DNA of 64,000 nt from Hesseltinella vesiculosa. Lineage: Eukaryota; Mucoromycota; Mucoromycetes; Mucorales; Cunninghamellaceae. A program made the translations under genes and the position numbers. The stretch is taken from NCBI GenBank assembly GCA_002104935.1, contig MCGT01000058.1:1-64000 (forward strand), in the 5' to 3' direction. This document shows, one piece after another, positions 1 through 19,728 of the stretch. How positions within the stretch are numbered: the first letter of the stretch is position 1; each line of letters opens with the position of its first letter. The notes under the pieces are model-generated. The model did no database searches. It was not told the origin of the DNA and saw nothing but the letters and a program-made list of their open reading frames with translations.

Positions 1-23
1 GGTTCTGAGCCAATCCCTCCATT

Positions 24-2444
24 TTGGCTCGCAAGATTACATTTATGGCGTTATGCAGTTGCTGCTTGGTGGTCACATCACGAATCAAAATCCGAACCTC
101 CCCAAGACACAGAATCCATTTTTCACGCATATGTCCAATCATTCGAAACCGCGGATCTCCCAACAGTTCAACCGTTACCTGGCTATTCCCAAACGTACGC
201 TCATATGGCCAAGACCTTAGCCACAGCGTCAAGAATGGCCTGGCTGAATCATTTGAACCTCGCTGCCGAACCTTCTTGGCGTTCAAATTCCGATCTTTGA
301 TTCCAGCCAATGTAAGTTGCGAGGGAAAAGAAGACAGGAACTAAACAACTCTCCCTCTTTGCTCTTAACAGGAAAAGCCAACTAAAAAATCATTGAAGAA
401 ATTGGTGTCATTTGCCTACGACACTCTCTGCGGGACTGACAGCGAACAGCAACTCCTATGTATGCACATGCTTCCTGGCAAGATGCTGTGGCGTCAGTGA
501 TTTCCAATGTGACCCTAGGGCCGACGCCTGTGAATTTGAAAATCTAACAGCCAAGTTTAACTTATACTTGCCCGTCGTGTATGGATTCCTTGGTAAGGGC
601 GTAAAAAGAGGCTCAATTGTGTCAAAGGAAATAGGACTCATCTCTTCCTCCTCCAAAAAATAAAAATAGCTGAAATGGAAGCCTACAATAATGCAGCCAC
701 TGGTGTAGTGAGCGAAGAAACAATCGTCGACTATGCTGACAACAAGAGCTGCTGGGAGCTGCTTACGCGTTTGGAACAATTCAATGATCTGGGCCGCCGG
801 CAGCAAAACCGCTTGTCCGTGCGTTTTTCAAAATGGTCAACCATCCGACGATGCCTGTCAGATTTGGACAAAGCTTGGCGATTATCTTCGCAGTGGAATG
901 ACAACATTGGTAACAAGAACCTGTGAACAACTCTCGTTGTCACGCCAATTCCTGAATGGACGGTATATGATCGACACGTCAGTATGCTTCAGAACGACAA
1001 CAGCTTCAACAATGCATGTCACAAAAATGTATACCCTGCTGCCTGCTCTTCGATTCACGCGCAAGTTTGTGACTCTGGATGCCCAGTGTCTGGCCCGGAT
1101 TTTCGACCAAGCAGGTGCACAACCTCGATACGAAGATTATTTGTTCGTCGGCAATCCTGTGGCAATGGACGGCCCTAACGACGAACCATCCAGACGAGGA
1201 CGACCCAGACAGCCGGTTCTTTCTGACTATCAAAAGATCAAGAAGAAGTTCCTGGTATTTTGGACTTCGTTGGATTTCAAAAAGGTCCGACTGGAGCAGT
1301 GGTAAGCTTGGGCAGGTGAATAGAAAAAAAAAAGCGGGCATCGTGGTAATCTTTTTGTTTCCCTAGCCGAGAATCTCTGGGTCGTATGATGTGGATGTGC
1401 CCCTGAAGGGAACAAAATAGCATTCAGGAACCTTGTACGAACCGATGGCCATACCCTGGAATTCCTGTGCGAACGGAAGAGCCGAGAACGCCTGCCTGAT
1501 CTCGTCATGAGTGACTTGGATGACAACGACATGGTGGAATTTTGGTCCTATGGTGTTGACCCAGGGCACACAGTGCCCTTCACAGCAGTGGATTCCGAAA
1601 AAAATTGCCTTCGATTCACAAACAACGAATTTTACGCCAAATCCGGGTATAAAAAACGTCGATACCACCGCCAGCTGTCAACCACCGAGTCTGGGATGAA
1701 CATTGCACTCAACAGCCTGCCAACGAAAAAAACGGTGTCATCGACCAGATGGACATCGTATTGCCAGTCGCTGTGCGAGACCCTGCCTGTGCTTTACCAA
1801 TTTTATGGCTCATCCTTTACCAATGCGCGCTTTTTGGCCTATGTCTCTAAGCAAAAAGTCCTGGATGAGATGGTGAACATCTTTACGTTTGGTGGCAAAA
1901 AATACAAAGAACATGACGTACTGTAAGTATGAATGGTAAAAAAGAGAGAGGGGGGGGATAACGGAGATTGACGTCAATCTTTATTTTTTTATTCAGTAAA
2001 AAAATACCCTTTTCAAGAATACCCCTGGTCATGATGGGCTCTGGTGTGTTCGGCTTCACACTGAAGGGGAAAAAAACGCGCATGTCAATTATGCCAAAAC
2101 TCAAGCAAGCCGAGTTGGAAGGACGGCTGCTTGTCTGCGTGGTCAATGAAAGCTTTACAAGTCAAGTAAGACAGAACTGGGGTGGCGGGAAGAATAGCTG
2201 CTCATAACAAGTGTCTTGGTTTTAGGTATGCTGTGCCTGCCACACGCAATCTCTGTCGCTTGCGCGAGTTCTTGACCCTTTGACCGATTCCGCGGCTTCC
2301 CTCTGGTCTGTAAAGACATGCTACATTTGCCAACGCCATTGGAACCGGGACAAGTCGGCAGCCAGAAACATTCTGCACCTGGGATATTTGGAACAAGAGA
2401 AGCAACCTCGTCCCGAAGTTTTCACCAAGTCAATGAACCATTGA
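24..2444 (+). CDS. Fanzor (TnpB-like) RNA-guided endonuclease, left part incomplete or decayed
   Basis: Fanzors are eukaryotic relatives of TnpB that cut DNA under guidance of a structured RNA and usually travel with transposons. The C-terminal half reads well through introns: exons 1421-1922, 1997-2165 and 2226-2444. It contains VDPGHTVPFTAV (RuvC-I aspartate), VVNESFTSQ, a zinc ribbon with CCAC and CYIC pairs, and NRDKSAARNIL (RuvC-III aspartate). Upstream exons 670-909 and 1004-1301 give family-like text (TLLPALRFTRKFVTLD). Joining 1301 to 1421 requires a tiny exon (1367-1383) and a 37-nt intron, so a frameshift is equally possible. Before 670 the coding signal jumps between frames (24-323, 372-about 460, about 490-592), which suggests frameshift decay or unrecognised introns, and the true start is unclear. 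The stop is TGA at 2442-2444. The family call is firm; the gene model in the first 900 bases is weak. Confidence 0.82.
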
Positions 2445-2505
2445 TGAAATCCCGAAGATTTCAATTTTACACCTTTCAAATGTAGACGACAAAGGCGTCT
2501 TTGTC
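2445..2505 (+). ncRNA. Candidate 3' guide-RNA scaffold of the Fanzor (two hairpins)
   Basis: The base after the Fanzor stop opens a perfect 7-bp hairpin, TGAAATC/GATTTCA with loop CCGAA (2445-2463). A second perfect 7-bp hairpin, GACAAAG/CTTTGTC with loop GCGT, lies at 2488-2505 and can extend by three pairs across one bulged T. Known Fanzor and TnpB guide RNAs overlap or follow the 3' end of the nuclease gene and are structured. The hairpins are seen; the role as guide scaffold is inference from position and family. The 3' boundary and any guide segment cannot be placed. Confidence 0.3.
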
Positions 2506-2554
2506 TGTCCTTGGTAAGAAAGATGAGAAAAGACAAGGCAGATTCCTTACCTTT

Positions 2555-2776
2555 TTATTTAGGGTAAATTTTCAAACCATATCGAAGAGTATGAACTAAC
2601 ATTTCCTTCCCTTTGTACACGGCTCTGCCTTTCCCTCTTGTATTGTAAGCTTCACTCTCGTGGAATAGCCAAGCATCACTTTCGTCACTCACCGTTCGAT
2701 TTTTATTTATTCTTAGCGGTGTTTCTTTTGGTTGATATTGTATGCTCCCTTTCGCCTTCGTGAGTACCACATCCAT
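2555..2776 (-). CDS. Doubtful small ORF, 73 aa
   Basis: An uninterrupted ATG-started frame of 73 codons runs on the minus strand between the Fanzor and the next gene. It is basic and hydrophilic (ends YGLKIYPK) and matches no family I know. No intron or promoter signal supports it. It lies in an otherwise AT-rich gap (2506-3052) in which I see only a possible 3'-UTR intron of the Fanzor (GTAAGA at 2513, TTTAG near 2562). It may be chance. Confidence 0.15.
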   Translation of the reverse strand: MDVVLTKAKGSIQYQPKETPLRINKNRTVSDESDAWLFHESEAYNTRGKGRAVYKGKEMLVHTLRYGLKIYPK

Positions 2777-3052
2777 CTCAAGTATAAGGTTTAGTTGCTT
2801 CAGGCTGACACTTATGCCTTAAATATTATAGCTCCACTCTTCGGTTTTTTTTCTCTCTTGGTGCTCATCACCACAATTGATGCACGACAATGTGACTTTT
2901 TTTTGATTTTGTTATTTCACGACTTCGTTATTTTGGTATTCCGACATTCATTTTTGGATAAAGTGTACTTCTGACAAGTGAGCACAGGGGAAAACATGTA
3001 AAGGCATGGGAGTGGACAAAACGTACGTATTGTGGGAAGAGGAGTATCAGCG

Positions 3053-5170: not shown

Positions 5171-8100
5171 TACTGCCAGCTGCTGTAGTCTCATTTCAGT
5201 CAACCCTGGCAAGGAAAATTAAATGAGTTTGATGCCACAGTGCTGTGTCTTTAAAAAATATACTTACCTCGGCATAACATCAATATCATCTTCAATAGCC
5301 AACAGCAATGGTACCGTCAAAAGCGGTTCCAGCAGAGCATGGAATGTCCTACATGCACACAGAAGGCTTGCCATGCTAATGCTCCAGCAGAGTATAGAAT
5401 GCCGCCCTTTCACACTGGACGTTTGCTATCCTAATGCCAGCAGCTGCAGTCTCCAATGATCAACCCTGGCAAGGAAAAATAAATGAGTTTGATGCCACAG
5501 TGCTGTGTCTTTAAAAATATACTTACCTCGGCTTTACACCAATACCATCTTCAATAGCCAACAGCAATGAAACCATCAAAAGCGGTTCCAGCAGAGCATG
5601 GAATGTCCTACATACACACAGAAGGCTTGCCATGCTAATGCTCCAGCAGAGTATAGAATGCCGCCCTTTCACACTGGACGTTTGCTATCCTAATGCCAGC
5701 AGCTGCTGCTTCCAATTGATCAGCCCTGGCAAGGAAAAATAAATGAGTCTGATGCCACAGTGTTGTGTCTTTAAAAATACACTTACCTCGGCATAACATC
5801 AAATCTTCAATAGCCAACAGCAATGGTACCGTCAAAAGCGGTTCCAGCAGAGCATGGAATGTCCTACATGCACACAGAAGGCTTGCCATGCTAATGCTCC
5901 AGCAGAGTATAGAATGCCGCCCTTTCACACTGGACGTTTGCTATCCTAATGCCAGCAGCTGCAGCTTCCAATGATCAACCCTGGCAAGGAAAAATAAATG
6001 AGTTTGATGCCACAGTGCCGTGTCTTTAAAAAATACACTTACCTCGGCATAACATCAATACCATCTTCAATAGCCAACAGCAATGAAACCATCAAAAGCG
6101 GTTCCAGCAGAGCATGGAATGTCCTACATACACACAGAAGGCTTGCCATGCTAATGCTCCAGCAGAGTATAGAATGCCGCCCTTTCACACTGGACGTTTG
6201 CTATCCTAATGCCAGCAGCTGCAGTCTCCAATGATCAACCCTGGCAAGGAAAAATAAATGAGTTTGATGCCACAGTGCTGTGTCTTTAAAAAATATACTT
6301 ACCTCGGCATAACATCAAATCTTCAATAGCCAACAGCAATGGTACCGTCAAAAGCGGTTCCAGCAGAGCATGGAATGTCCTACATGCACACAGAAGGCTT
6401 GCCATGCTAATGCTCCAGCAGAGTATAGAATGCCGCCCTTTCACACTGGACGTTTGCTATCCTAATGCCAGCAGCTGCTGCTTCCAATGATCAACCCTGG
6501 CAAGGAAAAATAAATGAGTTTGATGCCACAGTGCTGTGTCTTTAAAAAATATACTTACCTCGGCATAACATCAAATCTTCAATAGCCAACAGCAATGGTA
6601 CCGTCAAAAGCGGTTCCAGCAGAACATGGAATGTCCTACATACACACAGAAGGCTTGCCATGCTAATGCTCCAGCAGAGTATAGAATGCCGCCCTTTCAC
6701 ACTGGACGTTTGCTATCCTAATGCCAGCAGCTGCAGCTTCCAATGATCAACCCTGGCAAGGAAAAATAAATGAGTTTGATGCCACAGTGCTGTGTCTTTA
6801 AAAAATATACTTACCTCGGCATAACATCAAATCTTCAATAGCCAACAGCAATGGTACCGTCAAAAGCGGTTCCAGCAGAACATGGAATGTCCTACATACA
6901 CACAGAAGGCTTGCCATGCTAATGCTCCAGCAGAGTATAGAATGCCGCCCTTTCACACTGGACGTTTGCTATCCTAATGCCAGCAGCTGCAGTCTCCAAT
7001 GATCAACCCTGGCAAGGAAAAATAAATGAGTTTGATGCCACAGTGCTGTGTCTTTAAAAATATACTTACCTCGGCTTTACACCAATACCATCTTCAATAG
7101 CCAACAGCAATGAAACCATCAAAAGCGGTTCCAGCAGAGCATGGAATGTCCTACATACACACAGAAGGCTTGCCATGCTAATGCTCCAGCAGAGTATAGA
7201 ATGCCGCCCTTTCACACTGGACGTTTGCTATCCTAATGCCAGCAGCTGCTGCTTCCAATTGATCAGCCCTGGCAAGGAAAAATAAATGAGTCTGATGCCA
7301 CAGTGTTGTGTCTTTAAAAATATACTTACCTCGGCATAACATCAATATCATCTTCAATAGTCAACAGCAATGGTACCGTCAAAAGCGGTTCCAGCAGAGC
7401 ATGGAATGTCCTACATGCACACAGAAGGCTTGCCATGCTAATGCTCCAGCAGAGTATAGAATGCCGCCCTTTCACACTGGACGTTTGCTATCCTAATGCC
7501 AGCAGCTGCAGCTTCCAATGATCAACCCTGGCAAGGAAAAATAAATGAGTTTGATGCCACAGTGCCGTGTCTTTAAAAAATACACTTACCTCGGCATAAC
7601 ATCAATACCATCTTCAATAGCCAACAGCAATGAAACCATCAAAAGCGGTTCCAGCAGAGCATGGAATGTCCTACATACACACAGAAGGCTTGCCATGCTA
7701 ATGCTCCAGCAGAGTATAGAATGCAGCCCTTTCACACTGGACGTTTGCTATCCTAATGCCAGCAGCTGCAGTCTCCAATGATCAACCCTGGCAAGGAAAA
7801 ATAAATGAGTTTGATGCCACAGTGCTGTGTCTTTAAAAAATATACTTACCTCGGCATAACATCAAATCTTCAATAGCCAACAGCAATGGTACCGTCAAAA
7901 GCGGTTCCAGCAGAACATGGAATGTCCTACATACACACAGAAGGCTTGCCATGCTAATGCTCCAGCAGAGTATAGAATGCCGCCCTTTCACACTGGACGT
8001 TTGCTATCCTAATGCCAGCAGCTGCAGTCTCCAATGATCAACCCTGGCAAGGAAAAATAAATGAGTTTGATGCCACAGTGCTGTGTCTTTAAAAATATAC

Positions 8101-10515
8101 TTACCTCGGCTTTACACCAATACCATCTTCAATAGCCAACAGCAATGAAACCATCAAAAGCGGTTCCAGCAGAGCATGGAATGTCCTACATACACACAGA
8201 AGGCTTGCCATGCTAATGCTCCAGCAGAGTATAGAATGCCGCCCTTTCACACTGGACGTTTGCTATCCTAATGCCAGCAGCTGCAGTCTCCAATGATCAA
8301 CCCTGGCAAGGAAAAATAAATGAGTTTGATGCCACAGTGCTGTGTCTTTAAAAATATACTTACCTCGGCATTACACCAATACCATCTTCAATAGCCAACA
8401 GCAATGGATACCAGTCAAAAGCGGTTCCAGCAGAGCATGGAATGTCCTACATACACACAGAAGGCTTGCCATGCTAATGCTCCAGCAGAGTATAGAATGC
8501 CGCCCTTTCACACTGGACGTTTGCTATCCTAATGCCAGCAGCTGCTGCTTCCAATGATCAACCCTGGCAAGGAAAAATAAATGAGTTTGATGCCACAGTG
8601 CTGTGTCTTTAAAAAATATACTTACCTCGGCATAACATCAAATCTTCAATAGCCAACAGCAATGGTACCGTCAAAAGCGGTTCCAGCAGAACATGGAATG
8701 TCCTACATACACACAGAAGGCTTGCCATGCTAATGCTCCAGCAGAGTATAGAATGCCGCCCTTTCACACTGGACGTTTGCTATCCTAATGCCAGCAGCTG
8801 CAGCTTCCAATGATCAACCCTGGCAAGGAAAAATAAATGAGTTTGATGCCACAGTGCTGTGTCTTTAAAAAATATACTTACCTCGGCATAACATCAAATC
8901 TTCAATAGCCAACAGCAATGGTACCGTCAAAAGCGGTTCCAGCAGAGCATGGAATGTCCTACATGCACACAGAAGGCTTGCCATGCTAATGCTCCAGCAG
9001 AGTATAGAATGCCGCCCTTTCACACTGGACGTTTGCTATCCTAATGCCAGCAGCTGCTGTCTCCAATGATCAACCCTGGCAAGGAAAAATAAATGAGTTT
9101 GATGCCACAGTGCTGTGTCTTTAAAAAATATACTTACCTCGGCATAACATCAAATCTTCAATAGCCAACAGCAATGGTACCGTCAAAAGCGGTTCCAGCA
9201 GAACATGGAATGTCCTACATACACACAGAAGGCTTGCCATGCTAATGCTCCAGCAGAGTATAGAATGCCGCCCTTTCACACTGGACGTTTGCTATCCTAA
9301 TGCCAGCAGCTGCAGTCTCCAATGATCAACCCTGGCAAGGAAAAATAAATGAGTTTGATGCCACAGTGCTGTGTCTTTAAAAATATACTTACCTCGGCTT
9401 TACACCAATACCATCTTCAATAGCCAACAGCAATGAAACCATCAAAAGCGGTTCCAGCAGAGCATGGAATGTCCTACATACACACAGAAGGCTTGCCATG
9501 CTAATGCTCCAGCAGAGTATAGAATGCCGCCCTTTCACACTGGACGTTTGCTATCCTAATGCCAGCAGCTGCTGCTTCCAATTGATCAGCCCTGGCAAGG
9601 AAAAATAAATGAGTCTGATGCCACAGTGTTGTGTCTTTAAAAATACACTTACCTCGGCATAACATCAATATCATCTTCAATAGTCAACAGCAATGGTACC
9701 GTCAAAAGCGGTTCCAGCAGAGCATGGAATGTCCTACATGCACACAGAAGGCTTGCCATGCTAATGCTCCAGCAGAGTATAGAATGCCGCCCTTTCACAC
9801 TGGACGTTTGCTATCCTAATGCCAGCAGCTGCAGCTTCCAATGATCAACCCTGGCAAGGAAAAATAAATGAGTTTGATGCCACAGTGCTGTGTCTTTAAA
9901 AAATACACTTACCTCGGCATAACATCAATACCATCTTCAATAGCCAACAGCAATGAAACCATCAAAAGCGGTTCCAGCAGAGCATGGAATGTCCTACATA
10001 CACACAGAAGGCTTGCCATGCTAATGCTCCAGCAGAGTATAGAATGCCGCCCTTTCACACTGGACGTTTGCTATCCTAATGCCAGCAGCTGCAGTCTCCA
10101 ATGATCAACCCTGGCAAGGAAAAATAAATGAGTTTGATGCCACAGTGCTGTGTCTTTAAAAAATATACTTACCTCGGCATAACATCAAATCTTCAATAGC
10201 CAACAGCAATGGTACCGTCAAAAGCGGTTCCAGCAGAGCATGGAATGTCCTACATACACACAGAAGGCTTGCCATGCTAATGCTCCAGCAGAGTATAGAA
10301 TGCCGCCCTTTCACACTGGACGTTTGCTATCCTAATGCCAGCAGCTGCTGCTTCCAATTGATCAGCCCTGGCAAGGAAAAATAAATGAGTCTGATGCCAC
10401 AGTGTTGTGTCTTTAAAAATACACTTACCTCGGCATAACATCAATACCATCTTCAATAGCCAACAGCAATGGTACCGTCAAAAGCGGTTCCAGCAGAGCA
10501 TGGAATGTCCTACAT
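5171..10515. repeat. Tandem array, about 20.7 copies of a 255-261 bp unit carrying splice-like sites
   Basis: Twenty full units start at 5221, 5481, 5741, 5996, 6256, 6512, 6768, 7024, 7284, 7543, 7803, 8059, 8318, 8579, 8835, 9091, 9347, 9607, 9866 and 10126; a partial unit runs 10383-10515 and a diverged stub is at 5171-5220. Units are nearly identical. Variants are a 5- or 6-A run, alternative text after the TTACCTCGGC core, a deletion of about 4 bp in the CATCAAATCTTC type, GGTACC versus GAAACC, and different unit ends. On the minus strand each unit has a donor GAG/GTAAGTAT and an acceptor TTTCCTTGCCAG/G spaced 61-62 nt. The exon-like remainder (about 195-200 nt) checked by eye has a stop in all three minus frames. 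Short plus-strand frames (78 codons) survive in only a few units. I see no transposase or RNA gene inside. Confidence 0.97.
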
Positions 10516-18445: not shown

Positions 18446-19728
18446 ATGAGTACAATATTTTTATATGAAGATGGACATGGGGGCATCGTAGACGAGAATG
18501 GCGGTCCCGAGCCTATGGACTACATTGTTGATCAGAATGAATTCATTGTTGAGCCGATTGCAACGCATAGTGAATACTTGAAAAATGCAGCGTCTTGTGA
18601 ATCTTCCCAAACTTGCCTGCTGCTAAAAAAACAAAAAAGCGAAGGTATTCAAATGAAGGATGCAAAGACGAAACGAGATTATGTGCGCTATACCGCACAG
18701 GAAAAGGCTAGATTTTTTGATCTGAAGATTGAAAAGTGCATGAGTGCATCAGCCGCAGCCAAGCAGCTGGGAATCCACGTTCGAACTGGGCAGAGATGGG
18801 CTAAGCAATATAGTATGAGTCCTGACAGTATTTTTGAGAGTTATGGAAAAGTAGGTCGCAAGTGTATCTTGACTGAAGAGCATAAAACAGCTGTTATCAA
18901 CTTGATTGATTCTAATCCTTCTGCGACTGTTGCTGAAGTGACTGAGCATTTATTGAAACGATTCAATGATCTCAAGGTTTCACGCAATACTGTTCATAAC
19001 TTTATGACAAAAGAATGCAACCTTTCGTTGAAAAAAGCAGATTTCCACTCCATCGAAAGAAACAGCTCAGCAAAGATTGAGGAACGATACAACTGGGTGT
19101 GTCAATAGGAAAATTCAGATATGAACTTTTTGACGAATTGTGTGTTTCTTGACGAATCTGCTTTTGATATAAATATGAAACGTTCAAGAGCTTGGTCTGA
19201 AAAAGGCACTCGCGCGATTGTTACCAGACCTACTACGAGAGCAAGCACAACGTCGATATTGGGTGCCATCTCAGCCGCTGGCTTGATAACGGTCGGCGTA
19301 AAAAAACCAAGGCCTGCTAAGAGGAGAAAGGCTGAAGGGTATGTAAGTTCAGGAACGGTAACAGGCCACTATGTCAGTTTCTTGAAAATGACTCTGGATG
19401 AAATGGGCAAACACCCACATATGAAAGGACATTATCTGGTGATGGATAATGCACCAATCCATACGCATGGGAGCATAAAGAAATATATTGAGTACCGAGG
19501 ATATAAATGTGTGTATCTTCCTACTTACTCACCTGAGCTTAACCCAATAGAACAGTTTTGGGCAGTGGCAAAGAGTAAGGTTAAGCGCCACAGGTTTTTG
19601 CATCAAGACACTTTGTCAAAAGAATCACAGAAGCTTGCAACAGTGTTGAAAATAATCACTTCAAAGGCTTCGTGTCGCATTCTTACAAGTGCTGGGATAA
19701 ATGTCGAAATAAAGAGTGCTTGTAAAAT
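18446..19728 (+). mobile_element. Broken IS630/Tc1-mariner-type DDE transposase
   Basis: The N-terminal half has a helix-turn-helix region (SASAAAKQLGIHVRTGQRWA) and a second DNA-binding segment. The catalytic part has FLDESAF (first Asp), VMDNAPIH (second Asp) and SPELNPIEQFW (Glu), with 34 residues between the second Asp and the Glu, the DD34E spacing of Tc1-like enzymes. Two lesions are visible: an in-frame TAG at 19106-19108, where the same frame continues (a tryptophan codon would differ by one base), and a frameshift around 19640-19660. After the shift the familiar tail KCWDKCRNKECL is found in another frame and ends at TAA 19726-19728. TACAGTG at about 18275 could be a left terminus, but no matching CACTGTA was found on the right, so element ends are unresolved. 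The copy is probably inactive. Confidence 0.9.

Follow-up and report, generated by a model that had tools for sequence, protein, structure and literature searches.

A Fanzor1 gene in a multicopy, probably Tc1/mariner-type element of Hesseltinella vesiculosa

The Fanzor gene and its family assignment

Fanzors are eukaryotic relatives of the RNA-guided TnpB nucleases of bacteria. The window analyzed here (64,000 nucleotides, positions 1 to 64,000 of MCGT01000058.1) is the left part of contig C54 in a 27.05-Mb, 85-contig assembly of Hesseltinella vesiculosa, and it opens inside a Fanzor gene. Positions 1–2967 (forward strand), aligned with 14 further copies and partial copies, are the 3' part of an approximately 4.25-kb Fanzor element that is cut by the contig start. 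Using GT-AG sites and the gene model of two other copies (L035 and L038), we place the remaining part of exon 3 up to position 311, exon 4 at 372–592, exon 5 at 670–1301, and exon 6 at 1367–1922, all on the forward strand. Exon 7 (1997–2165, forward) is also bounded by GT-AG sites, and exon 8 (2226–2444, forward), which includes the stop codon, scores above the cut-off for Pfam PF07282. The original prediction described clean introns, and indeed the GT-AG introns at 1923–1996 and 2166–2225 join the three C-terminal exons into 306 open residues. A public protein model from another copy in the same genome (P0002) is continuous across both of these junctions, while a protein model from a second family (P0003) supports the second of them and carries an insertion at the first. 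In L035 and L038, the gene encodes 900 aa in eight exons separated by seven introns, starting 560 bp inside the element (measured in L035). The locus end originally given, 2444, is correct for the stop codon; the element itself runs to 2967.

The nuclease core was also predicted to be intact, and all of its named motifs are present in the order given. The translation includes RuvC-I VDPGHT with its DPG signature (1555–1572), the zinc-ribbon pairs CCAC (2229–2240) and CYIC (2319–2330), and the RuvC-III NRD motif in NRDKSAARNIL (2343–2375), the latter three within exon 8. To this set, we add a motif not named originally, the rearranged RuvC-II glutamate in VVNESFTS (2139–2162, within exon 7); all five are on the forward strand. 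The spliced window piece matches PF07282 (Cas12f1-like TNB) at 32.9 bits (E 7.3e-8), above the cut-off of 26.3 bits, so the proposed Fanzor/zinc-ribbon HMM search has a positive result. In the full 900-aa protein, the same domain scores 29.4 bits and is the only one named by Pfam. A search of PHROGs gave one weak transposase-family match (21.7 bits) over the same C-terminal part. Residues 1–120 of the L035 protein contain Cys/His-rich stretches that have no Pfam name and are common to the window's family (family A) and a second family (family B); these stretches are possibly zinc-binding.

The gene shares the TNB zinc ribbon and RuvC-III with bacterial TnpB of IS200/IS605 and IS607 elements. 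It differs from them in its introns, its DPG, its rearranged glutamate, and its score of 35.1 bits against NCBIfam guided_TnpB, which is under the model cut-off of 100 bits. According to the part of PMC10711439 that covers these signatures, Fanzors are set apart from most TnpBs by DPG together with a glutamate placed six residues ahead of the first CxxC. We found both features in all four sequences tried (window piece, L035, L038, and P0003), and the RuvC-III aspartate lies six residues past the second CxxC. The search pattern given in the same source allows 120–160 residues from DPG to the glutamate and 12–18 between the CxxC pairs; both families exceed it, with spacings of 169 and 26 in family A and 185 and 26 in family B. 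Because that pattern was made for searching TnpB-like sequences, we do not take spacing as defining.

Comparison with solved structures yielded weaker similarities. The closest structure to the spliced piece is the Fanzor of Spizellomyces punctatus, SpuFz1 (PDB 8gkh), with a weak local alignment over the same RuvC and C-terminal NRD region (E 0.018); with the 900-aa protein at full length, this match loses significance (E 0.77). When solved structures were searched with a profile built from families A and B, no Fanzor reached significance, and SpuFz1 came sixth (E 0.56), after unrelated chains. The Parasitella parasitica protein PpFz1 (PDB 9cf0) is also a large Mucorales Fanzor1, and its NRD motif aligns with that of the window piece, but the overall match is not significant (E 0.41). 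As similarity to solved Fanzors is weak overall, family membership rests on the zinc-ribbon domain together with the catalytic signature. The length of 900 aa and the element ends, which by inspection are not of the IS607 type, point to Fanzor1 rather than Fanzor2. Altogether, the sequence evidence supports the reading of the window gene as a Fanzor with the nuclease motif set, carried inside a transposon; by analogy with characterized family members, it would be expected to perform RNA-guided DNA cleavage. A structure prediction of the family B protein, made from a two-row alignment, reached a mean pLDDT of 35.5 and was set aside.

Copies of the element and the broken frame in the window

The Fanzor element is present in about a dozen near-identical copies across the genome. 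L035 measures 4249 bp between ends that are sharp in the alignment of internal copies, and the right boundary seen at position 2967 is common to 12 right ends. Genome-wide queries with 150 bp of each end found 12 near-identical places for the left end (95–100%) plus one older (85%), and 12 near-identical places for the right end (92–100%) plus three older (77–81%). Since the right ends of L037 and L043 have one flank in common and are probably a single site read from two contigs, there are 11 distinct right-hand sites. Overall, we count about 11–12 recent insertions. Reaching further, the 306-aa query has at least 184 related stretches in the genome and PF07282 has at least 46, both counted as stretches, not genes. 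We recognized no second gene in the element, though open frames are present in its leader and trailer. A second Fanzor copy, also truncated at its 5' side, lies at the other end of the window's own contig (C54:79241–79768; L010, L039). In L034, the left flank shows the Fanzor copy lying against the edge of a short tandem array made of a different sequence.

The original prediction proposed a comparison with other copies in the same genome and suggested that the locus may be a live nuclease or a recent remnant. The other copies proved to be 97–99% identical. Four out of five contig-internal copies (L032, L034, L035, L038, and L041) have no indel or internal stop in the coding sequence; L041 has one frame change, and L034 has AA in place of AG at one intron end, which changes a splice acceptor while leaving the frame otherwise whole. 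The frame of L037, a contig-end copy, is also unbroken. The high identity and whole frames narrow the original choice between a putative live nuclease and a recent remnant.

The window copy is frame-broken as printed over positions 1–1390. Its coding region contains nine frame-changing events, and the copy has nine private deletions, all in the first 1.4 kb, plus two private substitutions. This would fit a true pseudogene, in which case the deletions are real and the copy that closes contig C11 is a separate one of very similar sequence. That reading appears quite unlikely given how the copies compare: the C11 contig-end copy has no substitutions relative to the window across their overlap (12 indel columns), while the remaining 13 copies and partial copies in the alignment have 9–27 mismatches over 1.5–3.0 kb. 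Moreover, private indels concentrate in contig-end copies (window 9, L039 7, L043 5, L044 4, L042 3, L031 1, L033 1, and none in L036, L037, and L040), compared to one in the five internal copies together. The simplest reading of these sequences has a single copy split between C11 and C54, with poor consensus at the break, and the frame breaks are probably contig-end consensus errors rather than decay. By this reading, where repeats break an assembly, a gene that looks like a pseudogene beside the break can be whole in the genome itself. The ends of C23 and C45, like those of C11 and C54, overlap inside copies of the Fanzor element, and each of these pairs may be neighbors in the genome. A subtelomeric location, suggested by the many contig-end copies, was set aside because contigs break inside the Fanzor repeat and the assembly contains no exact (TTAGGG)x4.

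A different explanation for the multiple copies is that the Fanzor was taken over as a host gene and was copied by old segmental duplication. In its favor is the divergence between families, which suggests long-term constraint. Family B occupies at least eight genome places that match the 306-aa query at 55–61%, and its protein is 58% identical to that of family A. Between the two families, dN is 0.36 over 858 codons and dS is not computable, which we read as saturation; a dN of this size with saturated dS indicates a protein kept under selection, and we count it in favor of the transposon reading as well. Within family A, the 24 nonsynonymous and 16 synonymous changes and zero stops, against a neutral expectation of 2.35 to 1, are counts too small to judge. 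Yet the 97–99% identity among copies and the sharp ends with unrelated flanks at the 11 distinct right-hand sites are at odds with old segmental duplication, and we consider the host-gene explanation very improbable; recent transposition accounts better for these copies. Two protein database searches returned two Hesseltinella proteins alone (2 of 7199 candidates and 2 of the 7994 candidates scored), and a scan of viral contigs gave 27 stretches that fit a pattern, with no confirmed relatives.

Element ends and mobilization

The right terminal inverted repeat lies at positions 2955–2965 and is followed by TA up to 2967. Inverting the right end gives CACTTTATCCA, which agrees with the left end of other copies, CAGTTTTTCCA, at 9 of 11 positions; a match this good to the left end is found for 32 of the 121,978 other 11-mers in the window. 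At occupied sites, all 12 right ends seen have TA immediately after them, and 10 of the 12 left ends seen have it immediately before them (seven of nine flanks plus three of three further 14-mers; background 3.9%). The exceptions are L034, which has AA, and L035, which is two bases short. The base next to TA at the left end varies (CAG, CTG, TAG). In families B (seven places), D, and E (two copies each), the right end likewise finishes in TA with related terminal sequence, which is not so in family C (two copies). We sought the left end of family B, and none was settled. A 14-mer end pattern allowing one mismatch is not enriched in the genome (22+17 vs 16+29 for the control).

Tc1/mariner transposases are abundant in this genome, with 164 matches to the DDE_3 domain. 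Three of nine left flanks of Fanzor copies are the end of another element, which in L041 directly adjoins the Fanzor copy and contains an open 439-aa frame with a DDE_3 domain (94.1 bits). Each terminus of this neighboring Tc1/mariner element, read in L043, matches the Fanzor element left end at 9 of 11 bases, but its long inverted repeat is absent from the Fanzor element. Genome queries with the 150-bp ends matched this Fanzor family and its remnants alone, and we found no transposase with fully matching ends in the genome. Since we recognized no transposase inside the Fanzor element, mobilization in trans is probable, with a Tc1/mariner transposase as the likely agent. The window also includes a Tc1/mariner DDE_3 transposase stretch (19139–19615), among the best of the 164 genome matches; the inverted repeats around this fragment are low-complexity or weak pairs alone.

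Some features of the ends could also suit another recombinase, e.g., a tyrosine recombinase joining at TA-containing sites, in place of Tc1/mariner-type movement. A short inverted repeat with a pattern no more common than its control is one such feature; others are the variable base that follows TA at left ends and two deviating left ends, one with AA for TA and one short. We regard such a recombinase as unlikely because the inverted ends carry TA on both sides, families B, D, and E likewise have TA-terminated right ends with related sequence, and the genome has many Tc1/mariner transposases. Altogether, we have good confidence in a joint explanation: the window's first 2967 positions would be the 3' portion of a non-autonomous, recently mobile transposon of the Tc1/mariner type that has Fanzor1 as its sole recognized gene, is moved in trans, and is RNA-guided, and in which the frame breaks are contig-end consensus errors. 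In the proposed mechanism, the element would be moved in trans by a Tc1/mariner transposase supplied from another genomic locus. The Fanzor would bind RNA from the right end of the element plus flanking DNA, and the complex would cut matching DNA beside a short motif, predicted to end in TA. Such guided cutting would help to keep the element in place at its donor sites.

Putative guide RNA and relation to known Fanzor elements

In characterized Fanzors, as described in the parts of PMC10432273 and PMC11423790 that concern them, the guide is 3' of the scaffold RNA and targets adjoin a short 5' motif, which is CATA for SpuFz1 (PMC10432273) and ATN for PpFz1 (PMC11423790). By analogy, the 3' non-coding region at 2445–2965 (forward strand) is the expected site of the guide (omega) RNA, and the cleavage motif of the Hesseltinella Fanzor is predicted to end in TA. 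The predicted motif resembles that of SpuFz1, which also ends in TA, and differs from that of PpFz1. In their final 30 nt, families A and B agree at 24 positions, while the best of 174,522 other ungapped 30-nt pairings between the two regions reached 23; this conserved segment may be a guide scaffold or a site of transposase binding. Folding of the right end in two sequences (z +1.08 and +0.39) gave no support for a guide RNA, nor did a three-row right-end alignment, in which 1 of 17 predicted pairs changed on both sides.

One internally deleted derivative was found, the sole copy of its kind. This older 576-bp sequence (C1:188048–188623, within L055, C1:187900–188800) has no Fanzor match. What remains is 88 bp from the left end and 333 bp from the right end (77–85% identical), with a left flank of TT, not TA. 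We raise, as a long shot, that it may be a guide-RNA-only passenger that borrows both the Fanzor, for donor-site cutting, and the transposase made elsewhere. If true, this derivative would parasitize the RNA-guided component of the transposon.

Fanzor1-alone elements with Mariner inverted repeats and flanking TA duplications, such as PUl-4, were described by Bao and Jurka 2013 (PMC3627910, in the sections on these elements), which also reports Fanzor1 in Rhizopus, Phycomyces, and Mucor; this kind of element is thus already known. Based on those sections, PUl-4-like and Hesseltinella elements have in common a Fanzor1, no recognized transposase, Mariner-like inverted repeats, and TA. They differ in that the PUl-4-like repeats are identical to those of confirmed Mariner members, while those of Hesseltinella match their neighbor at about 9 of 11 bases (a comparison at the level of descriptions). 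The cyclophilin-binding RuvC insertion of PpFz1 is reported for Parasitella and Rhizopus alone in the relevant part of PMC11423790. Among the papers covered, in part by title and opening of the abstract, we found no description of the Hesseltinella Fanzor family, and the name Hesseltinella does not occur in PMC10432273 or PMC3627910. Judged by sequence, the Hesseltinella Fanzor1 appears to be a new, isolated family in an element of a known kind. With several intact, recently spread copies, it would be useful for testing the role of a Fanzor for its transposon in the native fungal host.

Elsewhere in the window, just downstream of the next gene, positions 5200–10515 consist of a 256-bp tandem unit repeated 20.6 times with 95% match.
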